A DNA stretch of 43,670 nt from a virus: IMG/VR virus record IMGVR_UViG_3300025674_000091, positions 1-43,670 of that record; one strand, 5' to 3'. Positions 2,132-43,183 of this stretch are shown in pieces (positions within the stretch are counted from its first letter, which is position 1; each line of letters begins with the position of its first letter). The notes under the pieces are model-generated. The model saw only the letters and a list, made by a program, of their open reading frames with translations, made no database searches and was not told where the DNA came from. Made by a program: the position numbers and the translations under genes.

Positions 2132-3217
2132 TTAAACACGCCGCATTAAACTTAGCACGTTTAACACGGGTGTTCTGAAGATACCCATAAAGGAATCATT
2201 AACACCAAGCGACATTACCAGCTCTTGTTCGTCTTCAATAAAGCAGCCGAATGGGAGGACACACGCTGGTTGATTAGAGATATCGTTGCCAACAGGGTCC
2301 GACCACGTAATCAGGTCATCGTTAGTGGAGCCGACAAAGAGCGGCTCATCCATCATGCGAACTATCTTCGTTTGGTCCTCGTCCAGGGTGTAAGCACTTA
2401 AGGCGTACAAAAGGTAGGGTCTACGGTCTAGCTCTTGAACCATGTACTTCCAATGGTAAAAAACTAGCCATTCGTCGCCCAACTTCACAGGAGCCGTGGA
2501 GTTGAAAGTCGGGTGACCCGCAGTAACTTCTTTAAGACAGCTTGGGTCGATTACCTTGTCCGGTTTTCCTGGACTCTTGATGACGATAGGTACTGTTGAG
2601 TAAAGAAGTTTTAACTCGTCCCCATCAGAGTAAAAGCACCAGTTTTTCTCCGCCTGCCCATCCTCTAGGTTTTTTCCGATAGGAGGGAAGTAGCAATCCG
2701 TCAGGTGCCCGTATTCGTTGATGACACCTGTGCAGATCTTTGGACTCTTAACCAGTTTGTGGCTTGAAGAGTCCCACTTGGTGGCGTAGCTACTCGTTAC
2801 AAACTGACAGTGAAGGCTGTCGTCGGGAGAGATAAAAATCCGGGGGTCTTCATAGCTGAGTCTGTGCTTTGATTCCCTGAGCTTTTGTCCTGCAACGATC
2901 GTCTCGTCATTGATCATCTCCCCTACATAAATATCAGTAGGGGTGTTGTTGTAGTAGAAGTACTTCATGTCGTGCCTGAACACGAAGGGCTCCGGCTGAG
3001 ATCGCCACGCGATAAGGGTCGACCCCTTGTGCTTAAGAATGCAGGGGCTGAAGTTAGCTACTGAGGTCGGTGGGAGACCATAAAGTATGCGAGTGAATTC
3101 GCCGCCGATTTCCTGAGCTTGTACGTAGACAGAAGGAAATCCAGACTTTGTCGGGAGATGGACTTTGCGGACGGCACGCTCGTGGTACGTGCGGTAGCGA
3201 TGAAATTGAAGACTCAT
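2132..3217 (-). CDS. GH130-like five-bladed propeller glycosidase/phosphorylase-like protein
   Basis: The gene encodes 361 residues. The pattern matches the five-bladed beta-propeller glycoside families (GH43/GH130 type): an early RSQPEPF strand, an EDPRIF motif at residues 123-128 typical of GH130-like enzymes, then GHPTFNSTAPV and WLVFYHW, the usual GSAPV...FYH region. There is no signal peptide. GH130 enzymes phosphorolyse or hydrolyse mannosides, but the substrate cannot be inferred here. It overlaps the upstream GT4 gene by 4 bases (ATGA), so a glycosyltransferase and a glycan-active protein are translationally coupled. A binding-only propeller is the main alternative. Confidence 0.7.
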   Translation of the reverse strand: MSLQFHRYRTYHERAVRKVHLPTKSGFPSVYVQAQEIGGEFTRILYGLPPTSVANFSPCILKHKGSTLIAWRSQPEPFVFRHDMKYFYYNNTPTDIYVGEMINDETIVAGQKLRESKHRLSYEDPRIFISPDDSLHCQFVTSSYATKWDSSSHKLVKSPKICTGVINEYGHLTDCYFPPIGKNLEDGQAEKNWCFYSDGDELKLLYSTVPIVIKSPGKPDKVIDPSCLKEVTAGHPTFNSTAPVKLGDEWLVFYHWKYMVQELDRRPYLLYALSAYTLDEDQTKIVRMMDEPLFVGSTNDDLITWSDPVGNDISNQPACVLPFGCFIEDEQELVMSLGVNDSFMGIFRTPVLNVLSLMRRV

Positions 3218-4386
3218 TTGCTCAGCTCCTCCATGGCTGTCTGAAAACCTTCAGAGATTTTGTCCCAGCGATACGAGGGGTTTTTCGTCACCTCATAGCA
3301 AGACTCAGCGGTGTGCTTGCGGTACGTTTCGTCTTCATAGAGTTCGGTAAGAAGCTCCGCTGCGTGATTCGTGTCCACGATGCCTCGCTCCAAACCGAGA
3401 TCTTTGTCGTAAATCCAGGCTGCGACACGCGCTAGTGGGGTTTTGTTCCGCCAGATATCAGCAAACGACGTGTGGTCTGGGAGAACCAAGGGGCGTTTGC
3501 ATGAAGCATGCTCAAAGGGTACTAATCCCCAGCCTTCTCCATTTGCTGTATTAATTCCAACGTCACTTGCGTTATAGATTTTGTTTAGCAGCTCGTCGGG
3601 TGGAGCATCCATATAGTTGATGTTGTTTGACGTCATGATTAATCGGCCATTCGAGTCAAGACCCTGTTTCTTCATCTCTGCCTCAAACAGCGCTCGGACG
3701 TCCCAACCGAGATCCTTTTCGCTCATATGGAGGTAAAGCATCGCGTCTTCCTTATCCTTCGCGAATTGCGCGAAGGCCTTGATGGTTAGATCGATCTGCT
3801 TACGAGGCTGGTTTCTATTTGCATTAAGAACGATGAACTTATCTAGAGGTAATCCGAGCTGTCTACGCGCTTCATCCCGTTCCATCGGGAAGAATTTTGA
3901 GGTATCTAAACCGTGGGGAATTACGCCAAGCAGTTTGGGCTCGACACCTTGCCTGATCAAGCGCTGGGCTTGTTCGATCGTGAATGTGATCGCGAAATCC
4001 CAGTCCTTGATGTAGCGCAAGTGGCTCTCGATATACCACTCAGAGTCAATTGGGAAGTAAGCTATGAACTTAAACTTATGCTGTGCTTTCAGTAAATGAA
4101 TGCGCTCCCAGACTTGGTTTACGATCCAGATATCGTTTAAGCAGATAATGAAATCCGGTTTCTCTTCCTCTACGACTTGAGGTAGTCGCCCGATCCCAAA
4201 ACGGTCGCTCGGATTCAGGGCTCCAGCTGGGTAGACCTTAAAGGGTAGATCATGAGGGTCACCACTGTAGTTAATACCAAACGCAACGATCTCATTATTT
4301 TTTGCGAGGTGCTCCAGAATACTGTGTGTTACACGAGCAAATCCAGTATTCGAGAGGATGTCCCCGTACCAGAGAATCTTTGCCAT
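3214..4386 (-). CDS. GT4-family glycosyltransferase (GT-B fold)
   Basis: The gene encodes 390 residues, the usual GT4 length. The N-terminal Rossmann domain opens with KILWYGDILSNTGFARVT. The VIPHGLDTSKF linker (155-165) and NRNQPRKQIDL (190-200) are typical of the donor domain. EGWGLVPFEHA (284-294) is the E-x7-E nucleotide-sugar site, followed by the PLVLPDHTS loop. It should transfer a sugar from a nucleotide donor to an unknown acceptor (phage DNA, virion protein or host surface glycan). It is divergent from TerL with only 48 bases between them and coupled to the GH130-like gene downstream. Confidence 0.85.
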   Translation of the reverse strand: MAKILWYGDILSNTGFARVTHSILEHLAKNNEIVAFGINYSGDPHDLPFKVYPAGALNPSDRFGIGRLPQVVEEEKPDFIICLNDIWIVNQVWERIHLLKAQHKFKFIAYFPIDSEWYIESHLRYIKDWDFAITFTIEQAQRLIRQGVEPKLLGVIPHGLDTSKFFPMERDEARRQLGLPLDKFIVLNANRNQPRKQIDLTIKAFAQFAKDKEDAMLYLHMSEKDLGWDVRALFEAEMKKQGLDSNGRLIMTSNNINYMDAPPDELLNKIYNASDVGINTANGEGWGLVPFEHASCKRPLVLPDHTSFADIWRNKTPLARVAAWIYDKDLGLERGIVDTNHAAELLTELYEDETYRKHTAESCYEVTKNPSYRWDKISEGFQTAMEELSK

Positions 4387-7779: not shown

Positions 7780-8595
7780 ATGCTCATAGATTGTTTTCCT
7801 TACTTCAACGAACGTGAGATTCTTGAGCTGCGTATCCGCACGCTTGAAGATCACGTCGACGGTTTTTTGATCACAGACGCCAACCGTACTCATAGAGGCG
7901 AAGATAAGGAATTCACTTGCTTAGAGACCATTCGGGAACTCGGTCTTCCTGAGGAAAAAATTCAGGTTCTTCACGTGGAGCTCCCCACCATCGAGGAAGC
8001 CCCTGATCCCTGGATCCGCGAACGTGGTCAGCGCGATGCTTTGGGAGTCGGGCTGCATATGATGCCTGATGACACAGTCTTTATTTGTTCTGACTGCGAC
8101 GAGATTGCTAACCCAGAGAAGTTTCAAGAGCTTCTGGAGGTTGTCGAGGAGGAGAAAGAGAATGTTGTGCGTTTAAGTATGTCTATGCATTACGGACGTG
8201 CCGATCGTCAGCTTGTTTCTCCTGAGGGTGAGCTTTTTGACTGGCGTTGCGGGGTCGTCAGCACCGTGGGCAAGCTCAAGGATTTCGGAACTTTGTCCTC
8301 CATGCGTACCACGCAGGCAAACAGGTACTTCGGGGATCGTGACGCTGGTTGGCATTTCTCTTGGATGGGCGATTCCGACAAGCGGAAGCTGAAGCTAAGG
8401 TCGATCGCCGAGTATTACATCTGGGATCGCCCTGAGGTTCAGAAGCTGTGTGACGAGTTCGAACCCGAAGAAGGCAACACCGATATGCTCGGTCGGGAAG
8501 ATCATTTACTGACTTCGTACCCTGTTGAAAATCTCCCGAAAGAACTGGTTAAACTGGAGAGAGTAAAGAATTATCTGTTGCCCGATGTCCGATAA
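7780..8595 (+). CDS. GT17-like glycosyltransferase (beta-1,4-GlcNAc transferase family)
   Basis: The gene encodes 271 residues. The N-terminus IDCFPYFNEREILELRI...VDGFLITDANRTHRG carries the hallmark of glycosyltransferase family 17 (N-terminal DxFPFFNE-like strand and the THRG loop). FICSDCDEI has the DxD-like DCD at 105-107 for metal and nucleotide-sugar binding. GWHFSWMGD near residue 190 is also typical of the family. The acceptor is unknown. The next small gene overlaps by 11 bases. A third glycosyltransferase-type gene near terL points to a dedicated glycosylation function. Confidence 0.8.
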   Translation: MLIDCFPYFNEREILELRIRTLEDHVDGFLITDANRTHRGEDKEFTCLETIRELGLPEEKIQVLHVELPTIEEAPDPWIRERGQRDALGVGLHMMPDDTVFICSDCDEIANPEKFQELLEVVEEEKENVVRLSMSMHYGRADRQLVSPEGELFDWRCGVVSTVGKLKDFGTLSSMRTTQANRYFGDRDAGWHFSWMGDSDKRKLKLRSIAEYYIWDRPEVQKLCDEFEPEEGNTDMLGREDHLLTSYPVENLPKELVKLERVKNYLLPDVR

Positions 8596-16598: not shown

Positions 16599-18407
16599 AT
16601 GGGTGTTATTAAAGATTTAGTCTGGGACGTGGTTCAGCAAGGTGGCCAAGCACTCGCTAGGCGTTTACTACCGCAGATTTTGCCTCTCACCGAAATGACC
16701 GGTGGCGTACTTCAGAAGGCAGCACGACAGTCAGCTGTAGACACTGGCCTCTTGAAACCTTTAGATGCCTTTCCCTCTGTTGTCTCGCAGAGGGGTATGA
16801 ACCAGGGTCTTTTAGGTACTCTCGATGTTCCTACAAAGATTCCCGGACAGGCACCTAAGCCTGCTTGGCCGGGTGCTCGCGAGTTTCCCGCTGGTAGCCG
16901 CGCTACTAGTTTTCTCCCTCAGCCTTATCAAGGTCCTCGCACCCGTGGCGGAGCGCTCGCTCCTCGTATGGAGGCTCCTTCGGCTCCGCGACCCGCTGTC
17001 GACTTTACCGAGGATCTGATTACGCCCTCGATGCCGACGCCTTCTGCCCCTCGTGTTGCTGAGGAGCTCGGAGGCGATCTGCCCCTCCGTCAGCGTGCTG
17101 GAGCTGAGGCACTTACTGAATACACAACTTCTAAAGGTGCCGTCCGTCAACCAGGCACCAAACTTGGCGGTCAGCCTTACAGCGGCAAACCATACGCTAC
17201 GGAGGGGAATATTGAAGCAGCCCGCGCAGCGGCATCGCCCGAGTTGAGTCCCTCGAGTTTTTTACGAGAGGGTCGCCCTTTTGCTGGGGAGGAGCTCGGT
17301 CGGAGCATGTTCCTGGATGAAGGGTTCCCCGATATGTTTACGGGTGAGTACCGGATCGACCCGGAGCTCCTGCGTCGACTCCCTCCTGAGGCTGTAGAGC
17401 GCTTTGTTCGGATGGGGCGCCAGCAGACTCCCGAAATGAGTCCAGGCATTCGCGCCGCCTTTGGTGTAGACGCTGGTCCTGCACCCGTGGATCTTGCTTC
17501 CGACCGTGCTTTCGAGCTTGCTCGAGGTCTTCGCAACTCGGCAGCAGGAGCCCGCACTCTCGATCTTTCCGGCATCGACCCGAGAGTTTTACTTGCCTTC
17601 GGAGGGGGAGCCTCTGCTGCGGCGTTAGGCCTTGACCTGGCGATGAGCGACCGTGGCAAAGAGGGCAGCGCTCGTGTCGGTAAAGTCCCTACCACCGCAC
17701 AAGCTCCTGAGGCTTCCGGCGCCGACCGTGTTTTAGATCTTGCTCAACTTATCCTTAACTCGCCAGCAGGAGCCAACATCGACCCTAGGAAACTGTTTAC
17801 TGAGGACAACGGCGCTCCTTTGGCTCCTGTAGGAATTCCTCAGGGGGATGTTCCTTCTTCTGCTAATGCCATGACCACCTCGGGCGGTATCGAAAAGAAT
17901 AGTGCTGAACTGGCTGCACTGGCTCAAGCTAATCCTGCTGCGGCTGCTGCGGCTCGAATGCTTGCACCCATGAGCCCTGAGAAGTATTCGTCTCCTCGCG
18001 AATATTTTGCCGCTCGTGAGGCCTACGCGAATAAGCCTGCTGTTAGAGATGCTCTTGCTGCTTTCGCCGGATCTACTGCTTCTAGCCCCGAGATGGCAAC
18101 CAACCTGCAGCAGTGGGCGCAAGCGAATCCCGCTTTGGCCTATGAACTTCAGCGTCGTGCTTTGGCTAATCCCGCAGCTAATCAACAGAGCGCTGAATCT
18201 GTAACTACTTCAGCTATTGACACCCCTCTCGGTTCTGACAACCAAGCAAACGCCGTGGGTAATGCTCAAGCTGTTGGCGCCGCTGCGGTCGCACCGACTC
18301 AAGGTAATTTCGATATGGCTGCTGCTACTAGCATCCAACAGAAACCCCATTTACAGCTTACCCAGCGGTTAATTAACCAAGCTCGTCAAAGGGCTGGGCT
18401 TTTTTGA
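16599..18407 (+). CDS. Large low-complexity virion protein
   Basis: The gene encodes 602 residues. A short amphipathic N-terminus (IKDLVWDVVQQGGQALARRL) is followed by ~250 Pro/Gly/Ala/Arg-rich, probably disordered residues. A hydrophobic stretch follows near 330-345 (LLAFGGGASAAALGLDLA), then an Ala/Asn/Pro-rich helical C-terminus with repeated ANPA units (AQANPAAAAAA, AQANPALAYEL, ALANPAANQQS). This looks like an internal or ejected virion protein. A TTAGAGC hexamer lies 10 bases upstream. No enzymatic motif. Confidence 0.7.
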   Translation: MGVIKDLVWDVVQQGGQALARRLLPQILPLTEMTGGVLQKAARQSAVDTGLLKPLDAFPSVVSQRGMNQGLLGTLDVPTKIPGQAPKPAWPGAREFPAGSRATSFLPQPYQGPRTRGGALAPRMEAPSAPRPAVDFTEDLITPSMPTPSAPRVAEELGGDLPLRQRAGAEALTEYTTSKGAVRQPGTKLGGQPYSGKPYATEGNIEAARAAASPELSPSSFLREGRPFAGEELGRSMFLDEGFPDMFTGEYRIDPELLRRLPPEAVERFVRMGRQQTPEMSPGIRAAFGVDAGPAPVDLASDRAFELARGLRNSAAGARTLDLSGIDPRVLLAFGGGASAAALGLDLAMSDRGKEGSARVGKVPTTAQAPEASGADRVLDLAQLILNSPAGANIDPRKLFTEDNGAPLAPVGIPQGDVPSSANAMTTSGGIEKNSAELAALAQANPAAAAAARMLAPMSPEKYSSPREYFAAREAYANKPAVRDALAAFAGSTASSPEMATNLQQWAQANPALAYELQRRALANPAANQQSAESVTTSAIDTPLGSDNQANAVGNAQAVGAAAVAPTQGNFDMAAATSIQQKPHLQLTQRLINQARQRAGLF

Positions 18408-18436: not shown

Positions 18437-18853
18437 ATGGCAGGTCCTATCTACGGTCAAGGTTACGCTCCGGGGGTCGCAATGACCACGACCCCTCCCG
18501 GAGTGGCTGCTCAAGGCGGTGGGCTTCTTGGTGATCTAGCGACCGTTGTCGAGGGCGCTGCCGATATCTTTAGGGGCGTTAAAGGAATGCCTCTTCGTTT
18601 CCAACCGGCTAACCAACGTCGGATGGCAGCCCAGGCTTTGGGTCAGTACTTGATGGATCGGGACAAGAGGGCAGACGAAGCTAAAGAAGCTGAAGAAGCG
18701 ACACCGGAAGAACCCAAGGGTGATTTCGAGAAAGTCGGAGAGGATTTCTTGAGAAAAGGAATGCAAGAGAAGTTTGCAGAGCTTTTTGCTAATCCTGAAG
18801 TTCTGCTGAGCTTTCCCGAGGCATTTGAGGCGACTAAGGGTAACCTCTTTTAA
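18437..18853 (+). CDS. Hypothetical protein, small virion-type
   Basis: The gene encodes 138 residues. The Gly/Pro/Thr-rich start (YGQGYAPGVAMTTTPPGVAA) is followed by a Leu/Val helix (GGLLGDLATVVEGAADIFRG), then a highly charged Glu/Lys stretch (KRADEAKEAEEATPEEPKG). It contains the residues NPEVLLSFPEAF, which echo the NPA units of the preceding large protein. A function in the same virion complex is a guess. A good GGAG site precedes the ATG. Confidence 0.65.
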   Translation: MAGPIYGQGYAPGVAMTTTPPGVAAQGGGLLGDLATVVEGAADIFRGVKGMPLRFQPANQRRMAAQALGQYLMDRDKRADEAKEAEEATPEEPKGDFEKVGEDFLRKGMQEKFAELFANPEVLLSFPEAFEATKGNLF

Positions 18854-19455: not shown

Positions 19456-20997
19456 ATGCCAAAAAAAGGTGGCGACGACTTCAGCTGGGGCGGCCACCAG
19501 CCGAAGAAGTCTAAGTTCGCCTTTAAAAGTTTCGAAGGGTGTAGTTCGTCTCACCAGTTATCTCACTCTGTACCTTTCAAACGTAAATTCCGACCAGATT
19601 TCAACTTAAAAGACTTTAGTATTCTCTTTGACTACAACTACGCGTCTATGTGGACGCGCTGGAGGAGAGGTTACGAGCTTTATATGTACGCCAATCAGGC
19701 GTATGTAGGCCTTAATTACTCTTTTAGGTACTGGACTACGGGAATTGTGGGCGTTGGAGCGGCGCTTCCGGGCGTTTGCTACATGTACCCCTCGATGAAC
19801 CAGGATATGGCCATGCGTATGGTGGCCATACGTCCTAGGGATTCGTTTAACTTCCTCGATTTCGGCTATTCGATCAAATCAGTCACTCAAACTTCAGGTA
19901 CGGTCTACGCTGTAGAGCTTTCGAGTAATTTCGGTCCTCCCATCTCTTTCTTTACGGGAGAGATCCTCTCAGATCGGTTTGCTTCCGACGGTACTGAGAA
20001 AACTACTTATAACAACTACGTTGTTATTGGGGTCGGGAACGGTACTACACCGCTTGAGCCTTCTTTTGCTCCAGTTTTCAACAGCATTTTTATATCCCTT
20101 GACACCGACAATAGTTGGTCAGTCGTAGACAACGAGACTCTCCAGGCTCCGGCATCTTTACCCACTGTGGGCGATTATTTCACCACGGAGATGAGGTTCG
20201 GGTGTAACTGCCCTGATTATCTCGCTAGAGAAGACTTTAATCTCTATGAATACAGTCTCAAGCGTCGCTACCCTTACACTCTGCCTCAGGACTTAAAACC
20301 CGGTCTATATGACGCAGGTGAGGACTACTTGGCCTCGCGTGAGTCGAACTCCAGAGATTATCCAGGTTTCACAAGAGACTTCGGTTTCCTCTATGTGAAA
20401 AAGCTTTTAAATCTTCCTTCTTATACAGACGGGAATAAAGTTTACTCAGATCCTAATCTTATTTATTTTGCCCCTAGGTGGTGTAAACATATTTATGCTT
20501 CTTTCTGGGACATGCAGAATCGGTTTGGTTCGGACATGTTCCCTGAGGCGTGGTTATCTCAGCCGACTGACGAACCGATGGACGATCGGTACCGAGAGCA
20601 GTTCGAGATCAACCTAGTCAAGCAAACAACATTCGATAAACGTCAGAAGCATCTCCGTTGGTGGGAGAAGTATTCACCCTCTCAGAACACAGTGCCGGTA
20701 CACATGATGTATCCGGACATGCACCCAACGATGGTGAAGACACTGAACTTCGACACGTTGGCTTCGGGTACTACTACGCCGATGACGGCAAGTGGATTCG
20801 AGATGTTTACGATTGAGCAATACGACCCGTTTGCACCGCCAGACCCCGACATCACCCCTAAGTTGGATGGTGGCACATACGCTGATGGTGTTCTTATTAG
20901 TGGAGCTAGTCTGATCTACGACGGAGGTCAGTACGCTAATGGCGTCTTGATACCTTATCCGTCCTATCCTTCACTGATTAATGGAGGTACGTACTAA
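19456..20997 (+). CDS. Large hypothetical tail/neck protein with C-terminal DGG repeats
   Basis: The gene encodes 513 residues. It is aromatic-rich throughout, with a CNCPDYLAREDFNLYEYSLK segment near residue 255 that contains the only Cys pair (CNC). The C-terminal 60 residues contain imperfect repeats LDGGTYADGVLISG, IYDGGQYANGVLIP and LINGGTY, which look like short beta-turn repeats. A basic Trp/Arg stretch (MWTRWRRGYELYMYANQ) lies near 56-73. Such a protein could be a tail, fibre-attachment or baseplate component. No known domain was recognised. The next fibre-like gene begins two bases after its stop. Confidence 0.7.
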   Translation: MPKKGGDDFSWGGHQPKKSKFAFKSFEGCSSSHQLSHSVPFKRKFRPDFNLKDFSILFDYNYASMWTRWRRGYELYMYANQAYVGLNYSFRYWTTGIVGVGAALPGVCYMYPSMNQDMAMRMVAIRPRDSFNFLDFGYSIKSVTQTSGTVYAVELSSNFGPPISFFTGEILSDRFASDGTEKTTYNNYVVIGVGNGTTPLEPSFAPVFNSIFISLDTDNSWSVVDNETLQAPASLPTVGDYFTTEMRFGCNCPDYLAREDFNLYEYSLKRRYPYTLPQDLKPGLYDAGEDYLASRESNSRDYPGFTRDFGFLYVKKLLNLPSYTDGNKVYSDPNLIYFAPRWCKHIYASFWDMQNRFGSDMFPEAWLSQPTDEPMDDRYREQFEINLVKQTTFDKRQKHLRWWEKYSPSQNTVPVHMMYPDMHPTMVKTLNFDTLASGTTTPMTASGFEMFTIEQYDPFAPPDPDITPKLDGGTYADGVLISGASLIYDGGQYANGVLIPYPSYPSLINGGTY

Positions 20998-20999
20998 GG

Positions 21000-21539
21000 A
21001 TGGCGTCAACACCAGTAATTCTGCTCTTAAAGAGAACAGGTAACTCCTCCGACAGGCCGAATACGGCTACGGTTCAGGCCGGTGAGGCTGCTTTGAGCTT
21101 TGGTGGTGCTGACCCTGGTCTCTACTTCAAAGATTCTGCTGGTTCTATCCGCAAGATTGGGCCTAGTCATTACGCCTCTACGGCTCCTAACTCGGCTCCC
21201 GTTGGTTCAGCTGGTAACTCTGTCGGAGAGTTGTGGACAGATTCGTCCACATCAGAGTATTACCTAAGGGTTTGGACTGGTTCCGCGTGGCAGAAAGTCG
21301 GTGCCGCCTTTGCTGACACAGCCAACACAGCAAACTCAGCTACAACCGCAGGGTCGGCTGCAACCGCAACAGTTGCTAATTCCGCCATTGTCGCTTCGGG
21401 AGCTTACGTTGCTGACTTGGCCTCGGGAATCGCCGTAGTTAATTCCCTTCCCACGGCGTATACCGGAGGTCTTGTCTATCTAAACGTGGCGCCTAGTGGT
21501 CTTTATGTCTCAGCCAACGGAGGCTGGATCCTCACATAG
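21000..21539 (+). CDS. Small tail-fibre-type protein
   Basis: The gene encodes 179 residues. The N-terminus RTGNSSDRPNTATVQAGEAA and GLYFKDSAGSIRKIGP are typical of the first part of phage fibre proteins. EYYLRVWTGSAWQKVG is a small fibre motif also seen in the 29120 fibre. The middle has an Ala/Thr/Asn-rich repeat tract (ADTANTANSATTAGSAATAT) suited to a trimeric coiled stalk. It ends GLYVSANGGWILT. It overlaps the convergent Dps-like gene by 8 bases. Confidence 0.7.
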   Translation: MASTPVILLLKRTGNSSDRPNTATVQAGEAALSFGGADPGLYFKDSAGSIRKIGPSHYASTAPNSAPVGSAGNSVGELWTDSSTSEYYLRVWTGSAWQKVGAAFADTANTANSATTAGSAATATVANSAIVASGAYVADLASGIAVVNSLPTAYTGGLVYLNVAPSGLYVSANGGWILT

Positions 21540-22074
21540 AGGTCCGGAGAGTAGCCTTCAGCATCCAAGCTGATTTGAACAGGTTGCCGCAGATTGCAGC
21601 AGCGTGGTTTTCCACGTCGGGCGCACCTGTTTCCCGAGCTGCGTCCACCAGGTCTTTAGCAAGCATCCCGCCTGCCTCAAGATTTTTAGTGTAAAGAGTC
21701 AGACCTTCCTTCGCGTCGTAGGTCTTTACGGAGGGGAATTTTTTGTAAGCGTCCGTAAGGCCGCACTGACACATGGGCATCAAGTAGTCCATGCTGCGGA
21801 CGAGCTCAGAAACGATGTCGAAATCCTCGATGTGCTGCTCATACTGAGCTTTAAGGAACTCGTGGATAGCAAGGAAGTTGCTGCACTCGACGTTCAGGTG
21901 CAGAAGGTGAGCCTGGGTGTTCAGCTGGTAGAGATAAGAAGCAAAGGAGACCATCCGGAAAACAAGGTTATCCGGCGTAGCCTCCTTCGTAACAATGACC
22001 TCTTCAGTCACGATTTCTTGAGTCGGTGCCTGAGCAGCGCTCTGGAAGATATCAGCGATAGATGAAGAAGCCAT
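21532..22074 (-). CDS. Dps/ferritin-like four-helix protein
   Basis: The gene encodes 180 residues. Residues about 40-95 read LVFRMVSFASYLYQLNTQAH, LLHLNVECSNFLAIHEFLKA and EQHIEDFDIVSELVRSMD. This follows the Dps pattern H...HxN(V)...F..lH..l..qYe...D...E, with His and Asp/Glu at positions used for the ferroxidase site. Dps proteins bind iron and peroxide and often DNA. Here the C-terminal half (LVDAARETGAPDVENHAA) continues the helical bundle. It is a leftward gene inside a rightward structural block and is paired with the HTH gene behind it (9-base gap). Iron storage is an inference. Confidence 0.6.
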   Translation of the reverse strand: MASSSIADIFQSAAQAPTQEIVTEEVIVTKEATPDNLVFRMVSFASYLYQLNTQAHLLHLNVECSNFLAIHEFLKAQYEQHIEDFDIVSELVRSMDYLMPMCQCGLTDAYKKFPSVKTYDAKEGLTLYTKNLEAGGMLAKDLVDAARETGAPDVENHAAAICGNLFKSAWMLKATLRTSM

Positions 22075-22083
22075 GGCCCGTTA

Positions 22084-22344
22084 TCAGACAGCGCAAGCAG
22101 ATGCTTCTTCTACTTTAGCTTCAACAGCGCCTACTGCTTCACCCTTCAAATAATCTTGAAGTGCATCCTGATTGATGCGGTAAAGAGATTTAGCGCCGTT
22201 GGGCTGAAGATTCACGAAGATACCCTTAGGCCAACCACCAGGCTGGTTGGATTCAGTCAGAGCAATACGCTTGCGAACAAAACCTGCAGAGCAGTTAAGC
22301 AGCTCTGCGGTCTGAGCGATGGTCAGGAGCCGTGCAGTCTCCAT
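22084..22344 (-). CDS. Small helix-turn-helix (excisionase-like) DNA-binding protein
   Basis: The gene encodes 86 residues from the ATG at 22344, which has an AAGG ribosome site 7 bases upstream. An in-frame TTG at 22350 is less likely. RLLTIAQTAELLNCSAGFVRKRI matches the MerR/excisionase-type wHTH, and GWPKGIFVNLQPNGAKSLYR with DALQDYLKG fits the wing and last helix. It probably regulates the downstream Dps-like gene or acts on its own promoter. The divergent gap (22345-22478) has a TAGACT box on the plus strand. Confidence 0.75.
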   Translation of the reverse strand: METARLLTIAQTAELLNCSAGFVRKRIALTESNQPGGWPKGIFVNLQPNGAKSLYRINQDALQDYLKGEAVGAVEAKVEEASACAV

Positions 22345-22478
22345 TGGCAACCTTGAGTTAAATGTGGAGGACGCTTAGAGAGTAGCAGGAATTCTTTAGA
22401 AGTGATTAGGTGAATTTGGCTTTTAGAATTTCTTTCGTTTTGGATCCCCTAGACTAACAGCAAGACGGTCGCTCAACG

Positions 22479-22727
22479 ATGTCAATCCGAATCGCTGGGG
22501 AAGTATTCAAAGGATACAACCAGCCCCGCCGTGACTCAGACGGAGGTAAGAAGTTCGCCGTGGCTGCGAAGGAGGGCGACGAAGTGCGTCTCGTAAGATT
22601 CGGTGATCCCAACATGACTATCAAGAAACACATCCCTGAACGCCGTGAGAACTTCAGGGCTCGACATAACTGCGACAACCCCGGAAGCAAATTGAAAGCG
22701 CGTTACTGGGCATGTAAGTCATGGTAA
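22479..22727 (+). CDS. Small conserved-phage-type domain protein (FGDPNM-type)
   Basis: The gene encodes 82 residues. The segment VRLVRFGDPNMTIKKHIPER...FRARHNCDNPGSKLKARYWACKSW resembles a short domain often seen in phage proteins, either alone or at the C-terminus of longer phage proteins, with the strongly conserved FGDPNM, FRARHNCD and ARYW-CK elements. Its function is not known to me. A Zn or structural role for the two Cys is possible. It lies upstream of the NblA-like gene with a divergent leftward HTH gene behind it. Confidence 0.7.
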   Translation: MSIRIAGEVFKGYNQPRRDSDGGKKFAVAAKEGDEVRLVRFGDPNMTIKKHIPERRENFRARHNCDNPGSKLKARYWACKSW

Positions 22728-22780
22728 GCACACAATGTTTAATTTCACCGTGTAAGATGGTATAAGAGGGGACCTCGATC

Positions 22781-23014
22781 GTGGCCAAGGATCATGATCA
22801 GATTAAAGTCGGACTGACACTCGAAGACGACTTCACTCTTACGCGCATCAAGAACGCTGCTCGCTCGCTAACGGGTGAGGATCGAGATAAGTACCTCTGG
22901 AAAACTATCTTCCGCTTTGTCTGTCGGGAAAGAGCCTTCAAGTCCGTTATGGAGCAGATCGGCGTGGTTATAGATACTAATATTGATATATTCGAAGAAG
23001 TAGAAGATGCCTAG
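22781..23014 (+). CDS. nblA: NblA-like phycobilisome degradation adaptor
   Basis: The gene encodes 77 residues from a GTG start. The core GLTLEDDFTLTRIKN...FVCRERAFKSVMEQIG aligns without gaps to the NblA pattern LSLEQxF...QAxxFLxxLYxxMxxREAxYxxLLKHQWG. Leu, Leu-Glu, Phe, a helix of similar length and then R-E plus an aromatic at the same spacing are all shared. NblA proteins present phycobilisomes to the Clp protease; phage versions are known from cyanophages. The start GTG is behind a strong GAGGGG site. The C-terminal Glu/Asp tail is longer than usual. Confidence 0.65.
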   Translation: MAKDHDQIKVGLTLEDDFTLTRIKNAARSLTGEDRDKYLWKTIFRFVCRERAFKSVMEQIGVVIDTNIDIFEEVEDA

Positions 23015-23804
23015 CGGCGGTCAGATTAGCCCGAACGCACGTCGTTGGCTGGATACTATTTCGTTTGCTGAGGGTACTTGGGGAGGAAAGGCTCCTCGTT
23101 ACGCAATCACCTTCGGCTATCAACCTATTGCAGATCTGTCTAAACATCCGGATCGGGTCGTTAAGAGTGGTAGATACGCTAGTGCCGCTGCAGGTGCTTA
23201 TCAGTTCATGCCGCAAACCTGGGAGGCAGTCAGAGGTAAGTTGGGACTCCGCGATTTCGGCCCCGTATCTCAGGATTTAGGTGCGCTCGAGCTCATCCGT
23301 CAGCGAGGGGTCGACCCTGATCGCGATCCGATTACCCGTGAAACCCTCGCAAAGTTGTCCGGAGAGTGGGCTTCTATACCCACCCTCAGTGGTAAGAGCG
23401 CTTACGGGCAACCTGTTAAGTCAGCAGAACAGCTTCTGAAATTTGCTGGTAGTCCGATGAGCGTCGCTACCTCTCGAGAGGACGACAAAACCCCTGTGGA
23501 TAAGAAAAGTTCCGAGGGGCTCGGTAAAGCTTTTTACGAAGCGTTTCTTCGTAGACTTACTAAAAGGAGTGGACTAGATGCTCCCGAGATCCCTTTCGTC
23601 GCAAGGGAAATCGGGGTCGACACTCCCGTAACGAGGGAAGAAATTATTGATTTATTTAGTTCAACTAAATCTGATCGGGCGTTAGAGGACCAGCGAGCTA
23701 GGGACGCCTCCTTGGTTTTTAATCAGGTTGCCCGTAATAAGGCGATGATGCAAAAGCTTATGGAGAATGCTCAGGCATCTTTTAAAATAAATCCAATAGT
23801 GTGA
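23007..23804 (+). CDS. GH104 (lambda R-like) lytic transglycosylase, virion-associated
   Basis: The gene encodes 265 residues. Residues 12-115 follow the lambda R/GH104 pattern: RRWLDTISFAEGTWG with the catalytic Glu at 22, YQPIADLSKHPDRVVK, AAGAYQFMPQTWEAV, LRDFGPVSQDLGALELI and LAKLSGEWASIP. The extra ~110 residues (from SPMSVATSRED) are charged and helical. Located among tail genes and not next to the endolysin, it is probably a wall-opening enzyme carried on the virion. It overlaps the NblA-like gene by 8 bases. Confidence 0.85.
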   Translation: MPSGGQISPNARRWLDTISFAEGTWGGKAPRYAITFGYQPIADLSKHPDRVVKSGRYASAAAGAYQFMPQTWEAVRGKLGLRDFGPVSQDLGALELIRQRGVDPDRDPITRETLAKLSGEWASIPTLSGKSAYGQPVKSAEQLLKFAGSPMSVATSREDDKTPVDKKSSEGLGKAFYEAFLRRLTKRSGLDAPEIPFVAREIGVDTPVTREEIIDLFSSTKSDRALEDQRARDASLVFNQVARNKAMMQKLMENAQASFKINPIV

Positions 23805-39359: not shown

Positions 39360-40595
39360 ATGACCCTCTCCCAACGTGGGTTAGACCTTATTAAAAAGTT
39401 TGAGGGTCTTCGTCTTACTGCGTATAAGTGTGTTGCTGGAGTCGATACCATCGGCTATGGGCATACAGGTTCTGACGTAAAACCTGGAATGAGAATTACG
39501 CAGGAGGAGGCCGAGAGACTCCTGTGGAAAGATACTGAAAGCGCTCAGCAGGCTGTACATAGCTTTGTGAACGTCAAGCTAAATCAAAATGAGTATGACG
39601 CTTTAGTCTCTTTTGTATTTAATGTTGGACCTACAGCTTTTATTCACAGCACGTTACTCAGGCTGCTCAATGGAAATGCTGACCGTAAAATTGTCGCGGC
39701 GGAGTTTGCCAGGTGGGTGAAGGCTGGGAGTGACAAGCCTGTTCCCGGTTTGGTCCGCCGACGTCAGCACGAAAAAGCTCTATTCTTGGAGAAGATTAAG
39801 CACCCTCTCTTGGGAAAATCGATCCTCGCCAAGCGCGACACGTGGCTTAAGCGTAAGCCCGTCGACTCTTCCAAGCTTGAAGCCGAGGAGAAGCTTTTTG
39901 TACCTAAGGGAGCCGCGTGGCAGTGGACCGAGATTCGCATGTATGCGGGCGAATCGCACCAACGCGTATTTCTTGAGCAGCAACCAGACAAGGAGTGGTG
40001 GTTCTGGCCTGATCACTGGAAGGTTATTAATGATGTTGATACACCTAGTGATAAACCCTCCGTCTCGTCTGACATCAAGCTGACTGTTCCCTATTACTCC
40101 CAGAGAGACAACTACAGAGACGCCAACCGAACCTGCTTTTCTAGTAGCTGCGCCATGCTTTTGAGTTGCCTCGATCCTGAGGCGATTGAAAATGATGACG
40201 ACTATATCCGGGAAGTCTTTAAGCTTGGTGATACTACAGACGCTTCAGTTCAAGTCAAAGCCCTCGCCTTATTCGGCGTGGAAGCCCAGTTCTCGACGAG
40301 AGGTGATTGGGGCTCCGTTGAATCCCAGCTCGAGAAGGGTATTGCTGTTCCCATCGGAATCCTTCACCACGGTACGGTCGACCACCCGAGCGGTGGAGGA
40401 CATTGGATTTGCGTAGTAGGTGTGACGTCAGATAAATCTAAGTTCTGGGTACACGACCCTTGGGGTGAGCTTGATCTAGTCAGCGGTACTTATGTCAGCT
40501 CTGATGGCAACTACAAGCTCTACTCCAAAAAGAATCTTGAGCCGCGTTGGATGGTCGAAGGTGACAAATCTGGCTGGTTTATGAAGGGTCAGTAA
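39360..40595 (+). CDS. Bifunctional endolysin: GH24 muramidase plus C39-like cysteine peptidase
   Basis: The gene encodes 411 residues. Residues 1-145 are a T4-lysozyme-type GH24 domain: FEGLRLTAYKCVAGVDTIGY gives Glu15, Cys24 at the usual Asp position and Thr30. A linker domain with Trp residues (about 160-225, KEWWFWPDHWK) follows. The C-terminal domain (240-411) has VPYYSQRDN (Gln248), NRTCFSSSCAML (Cys259), GGGHWICVVGV (His348) and VHDPWGE (Asp366), the Peptidase_C39_2 catalytic layout. It can cut glycan strands and probably peptide cross-links. There is no signal peptide, so a holin is needed. Confidence 0.88.
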   Translation: MTLSQRGLDLIKKFEGLRLTAYKCVAGVDTIGYGHTGSDVKPGMRITQEEAERLLWKDTESAQQAVHSFVNVKLNQNEYDALVSFVFNVGPTAFIHSTLLRLLNGNADRKIVAAEFARWVKAGSDKPVPGLVRRRQHEKALFLEKIKHPLLGKSILAKRDTWLKRKPVDSSKLEAEEKLFVPKGAAWQWTEIRMYAGESHQRVFLEQQPDKEWWFWPDHWKVINDVDTPSDKPSVSSDIKLTVPYYSQRDNYRDANRTCFSSSCAMLLSCLDPEAIENDDDYIREVFKLGDTTDASVQVKALALFGVEAQFSTRGDWGSVESQLEKGIAVPIGILHHGTVDHPSGGGHWICVVGVTSDKSKFWVHDPWGELDLVSGTYVSSDGNYKLYSKKNLEPRWMVEGDKSGWFMKGQ

Positions 40596-41649: not shown

Positions 41650-41786
41650 TGACTCGGGAGACTGATAATGTTCGCATGGCGGGCATGAAGCTCGGTTGGG
41701 GTCCTGCCGATTTAGCTCGAATGGTGTCAAATCCCAGCGAAATCACTGCTAGGCTGCGCTATAGCCAGACGTTCCCCCGCAGCTAA
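41646..41786 (+). CDS. Tiny hypothetical protein (46 aa) coupled to thyX
   Basis: ATGATG at 41646 overlaps the previous stop; the TAA at 41784-41786 overlaps the ATG of thyX by one base. The 46 residues are MMTRETDNVRMAGMKLGWGP, then ADLARMVSNPSEITARLRYS and QTFPRS. They have helical potential in the middle. The double overlap argues that it is a real gene translated together with thyX. Confidence 0.5.
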   Translation: MMTRETDNVRMAGMKLGWGPADLARMVSNPSEITARLRYSQTFPRS

Positions 41787-43183
41787 TGCAGCTTCACACT
41801 GCTGATCTGGATTGGATCACACCAGAAGCTGAAAAAGTTATTGCGAGGCACGCCAGGGTATCTACTAAAGACCCTGATCGTGAGGAGTACGAGAATCTTT
41901 TAACTTACTGTATCAAGCACGCACACTGGAGCGTCTTCGAGCAAGCATCTGCGAGTTTTGAAATATCAACAACTAGAGCAATCTCACCACAAATCTTGAG
42001 ACATAGAAGCTTTGTATTTCAAGAAGCTTGTATTACAGGGGACTCCCTCATTTCTTTTGAGTTGCCTCACGGACATACAAAAAATAAAAGAAGCCACTAC
42101 ACAAGATCTATTTCATACTTATATGATAGGTTTCATTTTGGGGCAGCACCTATAAACTCCCGGTGGGACTCAGAAAATAAACGTAGAATCCCACTAAAAG
42201 ATCGAATTCAAAATATGCGTATTCGAGTCTTCGATCAGAACACTAACGAGTTCATAACTAGCAATATAGTAGATATATATAAAACTGGCGTTAAACCATG
42301 TTATGAAATTAAATTCTCTAATGGCAAAAAAATAAAGAGTACACTAGACCACAAATTTTTAACTAAAAGTGGGTTTGCCCCTCTTAAAGAAATACTAGAT
42401 TTACGAGTGACTTCTAATAATACTGTCGCCATCCCTATCGAACGTGCGGACATACTATTTGCTACTAACGGAGTACCTGTTTACTCTCATCCAGACAAAG
42501 CTTACGATTTGTCGAATATAGAAGTTCTCTGTAAAGAGTGTCATTCTCGTACACATGGTACTGAAGGTCATCGTGTTGAATGGAGGCATCGTAGTAGTGG
42601 TAATAAATTGACTGCGCGTTGGACTACCGTGGAGTCTATTACTTATCTAGGGTTACTAGATACTTATGACTTAGAAGTAGATCACGACTCTCATAACTAT
42701 GTCGCAAACGGTGTAGTTGTTCACAACTCTCAGCGCTATTGCAACCCAAATGAAACTCTAGATATTGAGGAGAAGCCTTTTCAGTTTGAACTTCGGTTTC
42801 AAGCTCAAAAGAATCGGCAGAGCAGCGTCGATCGTCTGCCGGTTTACATGTGTGAGTCGTTCTGGGATCGTTTAGAGATCGTCGATAGTCAGATCCAAGG
42901 ACTGTACAACGAGATGCTTGAAGCCGGCGTGGCGCGTGAGTGCGCACGTAATATCCTTCCTTTGTATACACCGACTCGTATGCACATGAGTGGCACAGTG
43001 CGTAGTTTTATACATTATGTAGGTTTACGCGGCAAGGAAGATACCCAGAAGGAGCATCGTCAAATTGCTCGTTCAATCGGGTATCGTCTAGCTCGTGAGC
43101 TCCCAGATATCATTAAAGCTGTGAAGGACTCTAAAGATTCTTCACTCAAAGGCTGGGATTTTATTCGTTACGCGCCGAACTAA
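41786..43183 (+). CDS. thyX: Flavin-dependent thymidylate synthase (ThyX) interrupted by an intein
   Basis: The gene encodes 465 residues, of which 232 are ThyX. The N-extein (1-81) has the ThyX start (SVFEQASASFEISTTRAISP, then LRHRSFVFQEA) and the C-extein starts SQRYCNPNETLD. Joined, they give RHR-x7-S followed by QRY, the ThyX signature, exactly interrupted before the Ser by a 233-residue intein. The C-extein holds the rest, ending FIRYAPN. ThyX makes dTMP from dUMP using methylenetetrahydrofolate and FAD, supplying phage DNA synthesis. A one-base overlap with the upstream tiny gene suggests coupling. Confidence 0.93.
   Translation: MQLHTADLDWITPEAEKVIARHARVSTKDPDREEYENLLTYCIKHAHWSVFEQASASFEISTTRAISPQILRHRSFVFQEACITGDSLISFELPHGHTKNKRSHYTRSISYLYDRFHFGAAPINSRWDSENKRRIPLKDRIQNMRIRVFDQNTNEFITSNIVDIYKTGVKPCYEIKFSNGKKIKSTLDHKFLTKSGFAPLKEILDLRVTSNNTVAIPIERADILFATNGVPVYSHPDKAYDLSNIEVLCKECHSRTHGTEGHRVEWRHRSSGNKLTARWTTVESITYLGLLDTYDLEVDHDSHNYVANGVVVHNSQRYCNPNETLDIEEKPFQFELRFQAQKNRQSSVDRLPVYMCESFWDRLEIVDSQIQGLYNEMLEAGVARECARNILPLYTPTRMHMSGTVRSFIHYVGLRGKEDTQKEHRQIARSIGYRLARELPDIIKAVKDSKDSSLKGWDFIRYAPN
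42029..42727 (+). mobile_element. ThyX intein (233 aa) with remnant HNH endonuclease
   Basis: The intein begins CITGDSLISF (Cys1, block A) and ends VVVHN (block G), with Ser as +1 extein residue. Block B is STLDHKFLTKSG, and block F reads YDLEVDHDSHNYVANG. The splicing residues are all in place. Between them NIEVLCKECHSRTHG is the C-terminal part of an HNH nuclease, but the first half of that motif is missing or changed, so the element is probably no longer mobile. The DNA is visibly AT-richer than the thyX exteins, a mark of separate origin. Confidence 0.92.

Follow-up and report, generated by a model that had tools for sequence, protein, structure and literature searches.

Near-complete members of a phage lineage related to the Synechococcus phage S-EIV1 carry two NblA-like genes, and this is the main new result of the analysis. 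One of them lies in the window (the whole stretch of 43,670 nucleotides of viral DNA that was analysed), and the other is a more ordinary nblA found elsewhere in the genomes of the relatives. Sequence comparison indicates that the resemblance of the window protein to NblA is real, specific and beyond chance, yet remote. We regard this protein as a divergent member of the NblA type, the second of two in the lineage, which most likely serves as an adaptor beside the ordinary NblA; to this reading we assign a probability of slightly under one half.

The gene, its neighbourhood and its phage

The NblA-like gene and the features that surround it in the window are as follows.

21532-22074, minus strand: Dps/ferritin-like protein (Pfam Ferritin, 29.2 bits), part of the fixed neighbourhood
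22084-22350, minus strand: small HTH protein (HTH_17, below cut-off), part of the fixed neighbourhood
22450-22455, plus strand: exact TAGACT between the divergent HTH and phrog_7595 genes, upstream of the latter (alignment and scan)
22479-22727, plus strand: phrog_7595 protein of 82 residues, the upstream neighbour in nearly all relatives
22753-22758, plus strand: TAAGAT, at the site of the conserved TAGACT of the relatives (alignment of relatives)
22765-22772, plus strand: AGAGGGGA, ribosome-binding-like sequence read from the DNA, 8 bases upstream of the GTG of the NblA-like gene
22781-23014, plus strand: NblA-like gene, 77 residues, GTG start (open reading frame call, PF04485 at 16.9 bits, ranking by a host NblA profile)
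22814-22951, plus strand: NblA-homologous core, profile positions 2-47, predicted helix-loop-helix (profile alignments, AF2)
22952-23011, plus strand: C-terminal extension with family-specific conserved G, D, N and F and an acidic end, which host NblA does not have (alignments)
23007-23804, plus strand: lysozyme of lambda-R/GH104 type (phage endolysin families, phrog_90 at 2e-28, and lambda-R-type lysozyme matches)

The sequence-only reading had described a GTG-started product of 77 residues coupled to a GH104 gene, and both statements are borne out, the stop of the NblA-like gene overlapping the ATG of the lysozyme gene at 23007 by 8 bases. The frame is genuine, coding and under strong purifying selection, with dN/dS values of 0.04-0.17 against the nearer relatives and a median of 0.13 over 435 unsaturated pairs. 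The same order recurs in about 90 relatives, namely a tail-type gene, the Dps and HTH genes on the minus strand, the phrog_7595 and NblA-like genes on the plus strand and, mostly, a recognisable lysozyme gene. To keep the sampling from being circular, loci were also fetched through another gene (19456-20997), and the NblA-like gene was present in 37 of the 37 relatives that covered the site. Among more distant records the phrog_7595 gene is sometimes missing beside the NblA-like gene, and in one of them (G239) the hydrolase is unlike GH104 and the NblA-like gene still stands in front of it.

The Dps/ferritin-like gene is kept at this site lineage-wide, and the S-EIV1 copy, 45% identical, lies elsewhere in that genome. 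The phrog_7595 gene seems to move between sites, as its product (90-93% identical) is encoded between the terminase and portal genes of one sub-lineage (L313, L323 and loci like them), with no adjoining NblA-like gene. A further plus-strand gene of the window (39360-40595) encodes a phage lysozyme fused to a C39-like peptidase domain; it probably specifies the main endolysin, so that the GH104 enzyme beside the NblA-like gene would be an additional one.

Placement of the gene inside the tail block, as originally described, holds in that tail-type genes lie on both sides of it. However, the Dps and HTH genes, on the minus strand, stand between it and the tail genes upstream, and most relatives possess a promoter-like element directly before it; thus it is not simply one link of a tail operon. 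Of 55 distinct upstream regions, 32 show an exact TAGACT, resembling a -10 box, some tens of bases ahead of the start (background, 0.18 per kb), and others carry close variants. A generic sigma-70 scan gave no promoter at this site, the motif having emerged from the alignment of relatives. Probably the gene is transcribed from a promoter of its own. A late promoter held in common with the capsid gene was considered and dropped, since the upstream regions of the capsid gene are without TAGACT. Late expression is possible; the gene adjoins that of a cell-wall hydrolase, and the promoter-like element does not reveal its timing.

The major capsid protein of the window is 69% identical to that of S-EIV1, the terminase (TerL) 53% and the portal 46%, and the three shared proteins together place the phage in this lineage. 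The record of S-EIV1 gives a Synechococcus host and a high arctic lake. Given the capsid identity, a cyanobacterial host is almost certain, and it may be one bearing phycobilisomes, to judge from the host of S-EIV1 and from the second nblA of the relatives. These are better signs of such a host than the window gene itself, which had been proposed as the best one. Among markers of photosynthetic hosts, psbA was absent from the 37 records searched, and CpeT was absent from 14 lineage records and from S-EIV1. Relatives of the NblA-like protein are encoded on at least 111 matching IMG/VR stretches, and the family is confined to relatives of a Synechococcus phage. The window also carries a thymidylate synthase gene, thyX, split by an intein with an HNH-like region (41786-43183, plus strand; Pfam Thy1 and Intein_splicing), as well as glycosyltransferase and glycoside-phosphorylase-like genes (2132-4386, minus strand; 7780-8595, plus strand) that flank the terminase gene.

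Resemblance to NblA

The top Pfam match of the window protein is NblA (PF04485), at 16.9 bits and an E-value of 0.0088, a score that does not reach the curated cut-off of 25 bits. This best family match runs along the whole NblA profile without gaps, with residues 12-57 aligned to positions 2-47 of 50, which agrees with the gap-free NblA spacing noticed from the letters alone. All 14 relatives tested match Pfam NblA as well (best E-value, 4.8e-4), and when a profile of the family was compared with the PDB, its top and sole notable match was NblA 1ojh, ungapped and weak (E-value, 0.2-0.24). On a profile of 37 host NblAs the window protein scores 17.9 bits, and 20,000 shuffles of it reach at most 8.4 bits. 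The same search over 12,790 open reading frames of this phage group ranked an S-EIV1 frame first and members of the NblA-like family in the next 51 places; 66 of the 67 family frames were listed, 51 of them within the first 52 ranks, and the first unrelated frame appeared at an E-value of 0.53. A comparison of the family with 26 host NblAs by hhalign gave a probability of 79.7% (P 1.5e-5) over 51 ungapped columns. No family matching the protein was found in PHROGs, and tblastn retrieved no relative in a phage collection. Nor did a set holding one genome per bacterial or archaeal species contain any relative, so the gene is not one that hosts or prophages commonly carry. When 194 cyanobacterial genomes were scanned in six frames with the family profile, their NblA genes were not retrieved.

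The family retains L7, L9, E10, F13 and the R44-E45 pair of host NblA, together with the hydrophobic pattern. Its N-terminal LxLEQxF motif is not intact, Q11, invariant in 26 host NblAs, being replaced by D in 35 of 35 family members. At the other end, position 53 is K or R in 21 of the 26 host NblAs and D or E in 22 of the 35 family members, and W56 of host NblA has become G. Invariants private to the family are a W at position 35 and CRERA at 43-47, and its strongest constraint falls on these residues, which are absent from NblA. An acidic extension past the usual NblA end, as the sequence-only reading had noted, is present and partly conserved, the conserved part being GVxxDxNxxxF. In Anabaena NblA, K53 is reportedly important for phycobilisome binding (Bienert 2006), and L51 has a role as well. 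According to a published report (PMC4103541), NblA contacts ClpC close to the N terminus and phycobiliproteins close to the C terminus; thus, the changes of the family affect either end, and the C-terminal end more strongly.

An AF2 model of the window protein built with 35 relatives has helices at 14-27 and 33-60 (pLDDT 70, pTM 0.50), and host NblA modelled identically has helices at 9-23 and 27-55 (pLDDT 85). The monomer is thus predicted, with moderate confidence, to be a helix-loop-helix resembling the host NblA model. A Foldseek search of the PDB with the model retrieved no NblA; the result was set aside because the model of host NblA, used as a positive control, missed NblA likewise. HMM comparison and structure prediction, which had been proposed as checks, gave a specific match and a two-helix model, while the score remained below threshold.

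Relative to the cyanobacterial NblAs (PF04485; PDB 1ojh, 2q8v, 2qdo and 3cs5), the window protein shares the length class, the ungapped register, the LxLExxF start, the R-E pair and the two predicted helices, whereas it falls short of the Pfam cut-off, has D for Q and D or E for the C-terminal K, has no terminal W, and adds a conserved extension of approximately 15-20 residues. It is not filed as a certified NblA member, because the Pfam cut-off is missed and motif residues are changed. NblA is also carried by the cyanophages Ma-LMM01, MaMV-DC, PaV-LD and S-SCSM1. The proteins of the first three score 45-52 bits on PF04485, retain the Q and are clear members, whereas the published nblA of S-SCSM1 reaches 0.6 bits on the host profile and lies directly behind virion genes. 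The Synechococcus podoviruses S-CBP1, S-CBP3 and S-RIP2 likewise encode NblA-like proteins that are sub-threshold on PF04485 (15-24 bits) and have extended ends, but these have retained the Q in their N-terminal motif and belong to an unrelated phage backbone. On the host profile the better members of the present family score 17-22 bits, S-CBP1 16.9 and S-CBP3 21.3. Hence neither a weak score nor a site among structural genes is disqualifying. Genes for NblA have been reported in cyanopodoviruses and in S-TIM5, and several viral NblAs expressed in cyanobacteria caused loss of phycobilin (PMC9602691).

A second, ordinary nblA in the same phages

A PF04485 scan of whole records revealed a second nblA, which exceeds the Pfam cut-off in five of them (35.8 bits in G003, 30.7 in G006, 30.0 in G238, 29.3 in G001 and 25.5 in G004). 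The profile of this second gene (alignment A4) matches host NblA with an hhalign probability of 96.7% (3.3e-10) and recovers all four NblA structures from the PDB. Of the 14 lineage records that reach 70 kb or more, 13 contain the gene, which adjoins non-structural genes and overlaps or adjoins a gene on the opposite strand. It lies in the same phages as the window-type gene, and both proteins extend past the usual NblA end; the second differs in exceeding the Pfam cut-off, in its distance of about 28-31 kb and in its lower conservation (mean column identity 42% versus 60% in the alignments). The two families do not recognise each other (7.5%). Positions of the second nblA, with those of the S-EIV1 protein discussed below, are as follows.

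G001, 18168-18404, minus strand: second nblA
G003, 18449-18682, minus strand: second nblA
G004, 52463-52696, plus strand: second nblA
G006, 53844-54077, minus strand: second nblA
Loci L416-L436: further copies of the second nblA
S-EIV1, KJ410740 73902-74222 (L094:33903-34223): AHV82245, annotated as hypothetical, NblA match of 16.3 bits

In G001, G003, G004 and G006 the second gene follows the structural-region copy at a distance of 28-31 kb. The window itself shows one NblA-like copy, and the expected site of the other falls beyond its 43.67-kb end; the phage of the window presumably carries it as well.

S-EIV1 is the only cultured relative found. A first search with the family profile had suggested that it was without a homologue, which was overturned when a Pfam search gave an NblA-like frame beside its lysozyme gene. 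The product, AHV82245, matches NblA weakly, and its gene is near those for lysozyme and phrog_7595 (2.7e-38), but it is unrecognised by the family profile, follows the lysozyme gene directly instead of preceding it, and has a longer acidic tail.

Possible roles of the divergent protein

The sequence-only reading had taken the gene for one that breaks the host light-harvesting antenna. Its NblA-like identity and the cyanobacterial host stand; as an antenna-breaking gene, the second nblA of the relatives is the better candidate. Phycobilisome breakdown by the window copy is nevertheless plausible. The protein would form a helix-loop-helix, dimerise like host NblA, use its LTLEDxF end to dock on ClpC, a chaperone of the host, and deliver a phycobilisome protein, which it would have to bind, to the Clp protease, so that amino acids would be freed and light capture lowered during infection. 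Since these phages also encode a more ordinary NblA, the divergent copy most likely works beside that one, either as a heterodimer partner, in the manner of NblA1/NblA2 of Synechocystis (Baier 2014, as cited in PMC7966870), or on another part of the antenna. Against the adaptor reading count the score short of the Pfam cut-off, the hhalign probability of about 80%, not above 95%, the missing mutual match with the second viral NblA, the changes at Q11, K53 and W56, and the focus of constraint on residues foreign to NblA. The ordinary nblA could also do the work alone, and the linkage to a cell-wall hydrolase would also fit a role in lysis or in the tail. A bolder reading, which we consider less likely than not, is that one lineage has two NblA-type adaptors, the ordinary one and a rebuilt one that is present lineage-wide and tied to the hydrolase gene, and that the rebuilt one either enters a heterodimer encoded by the phage or hijacks ClpC for another target late in infection.

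Three other explanations share parts of this evidence. The protein could be an NblA descendant that has been retargeted, keeping the end that docks on ClpC and rebuilding the cargo end so as to supply the Clp protease with some other protein of host or phage. Retention of LxLExxF beside a new invariant set in the C-terminal half (W, CRERA and the GVxxDxN tail) fits such a change, as do the opposite placement of the two binding sites in NblA and the persistence of a separate ordinary nblA in the same phages; but the motif on the ClpC side is itself altered from Q to D, no such cargo is known, and a rewritten C terminus might equally suit another phycobiliprotein. We hold retargeting to be unlikely, yet a serious alternative. 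A late accessory of the virion or of lysis, with an NblA-like two-helix fold and no part in antenna breakdown, for instance one that chaperones or regulates the tail lysozyme, would account for the single neighbourhood in about 90 loci, mostly directly before a recognisable cell-wall hydrolase gene, for the maintenance of that position even with the enzyme of G239, for the overlap of stop and start in the window, and for conservation stronger than that of the second viral NblA. The sequence signal, however, leads to NblA and to nothing else in Pfam or the PDB, the site of the S-SCSM1 gene is compatible with an adaptor role, and the gene possesses a promoter-like element of its own; this explanation, too, is unlikely but a serious alternative.

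Convergence is the least probable of the alternatives and we consider it very unlikely, namely that a short amphipathic helical hairpin shares the LxLExxF start by chance. Weak look-alikes are common among short helical proteins, the family and the second viral NblA have no mutual match, and the family profile failed to retrieve NblA genes from the cyanobacterial genomes. On the other hand, chance hardly explains the top rank against 12,790 frames and 20,000 shuffles, the ungapped register over 50 residues, NblA as the top match in two independent libraries, or the confinement of the family to phages related to a Synechococcus phage. We retain the adaptor beside the ordinary NblA as our preferred reading.

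Currently, viral NblA is viewed as a means by which cyanophages shut down the light harvesting of their hosts. If a gene of this type is indeed fixed in the structural and lysis region of a lineage that carries a separate nblA, control of the antenna or of Clp would belong to the core programme of the phage and not to its optional borrowed genes. The divergent copy also offers a natural way to test which residues of NblA govern docking on ClpC and which govern the choice of cargo.
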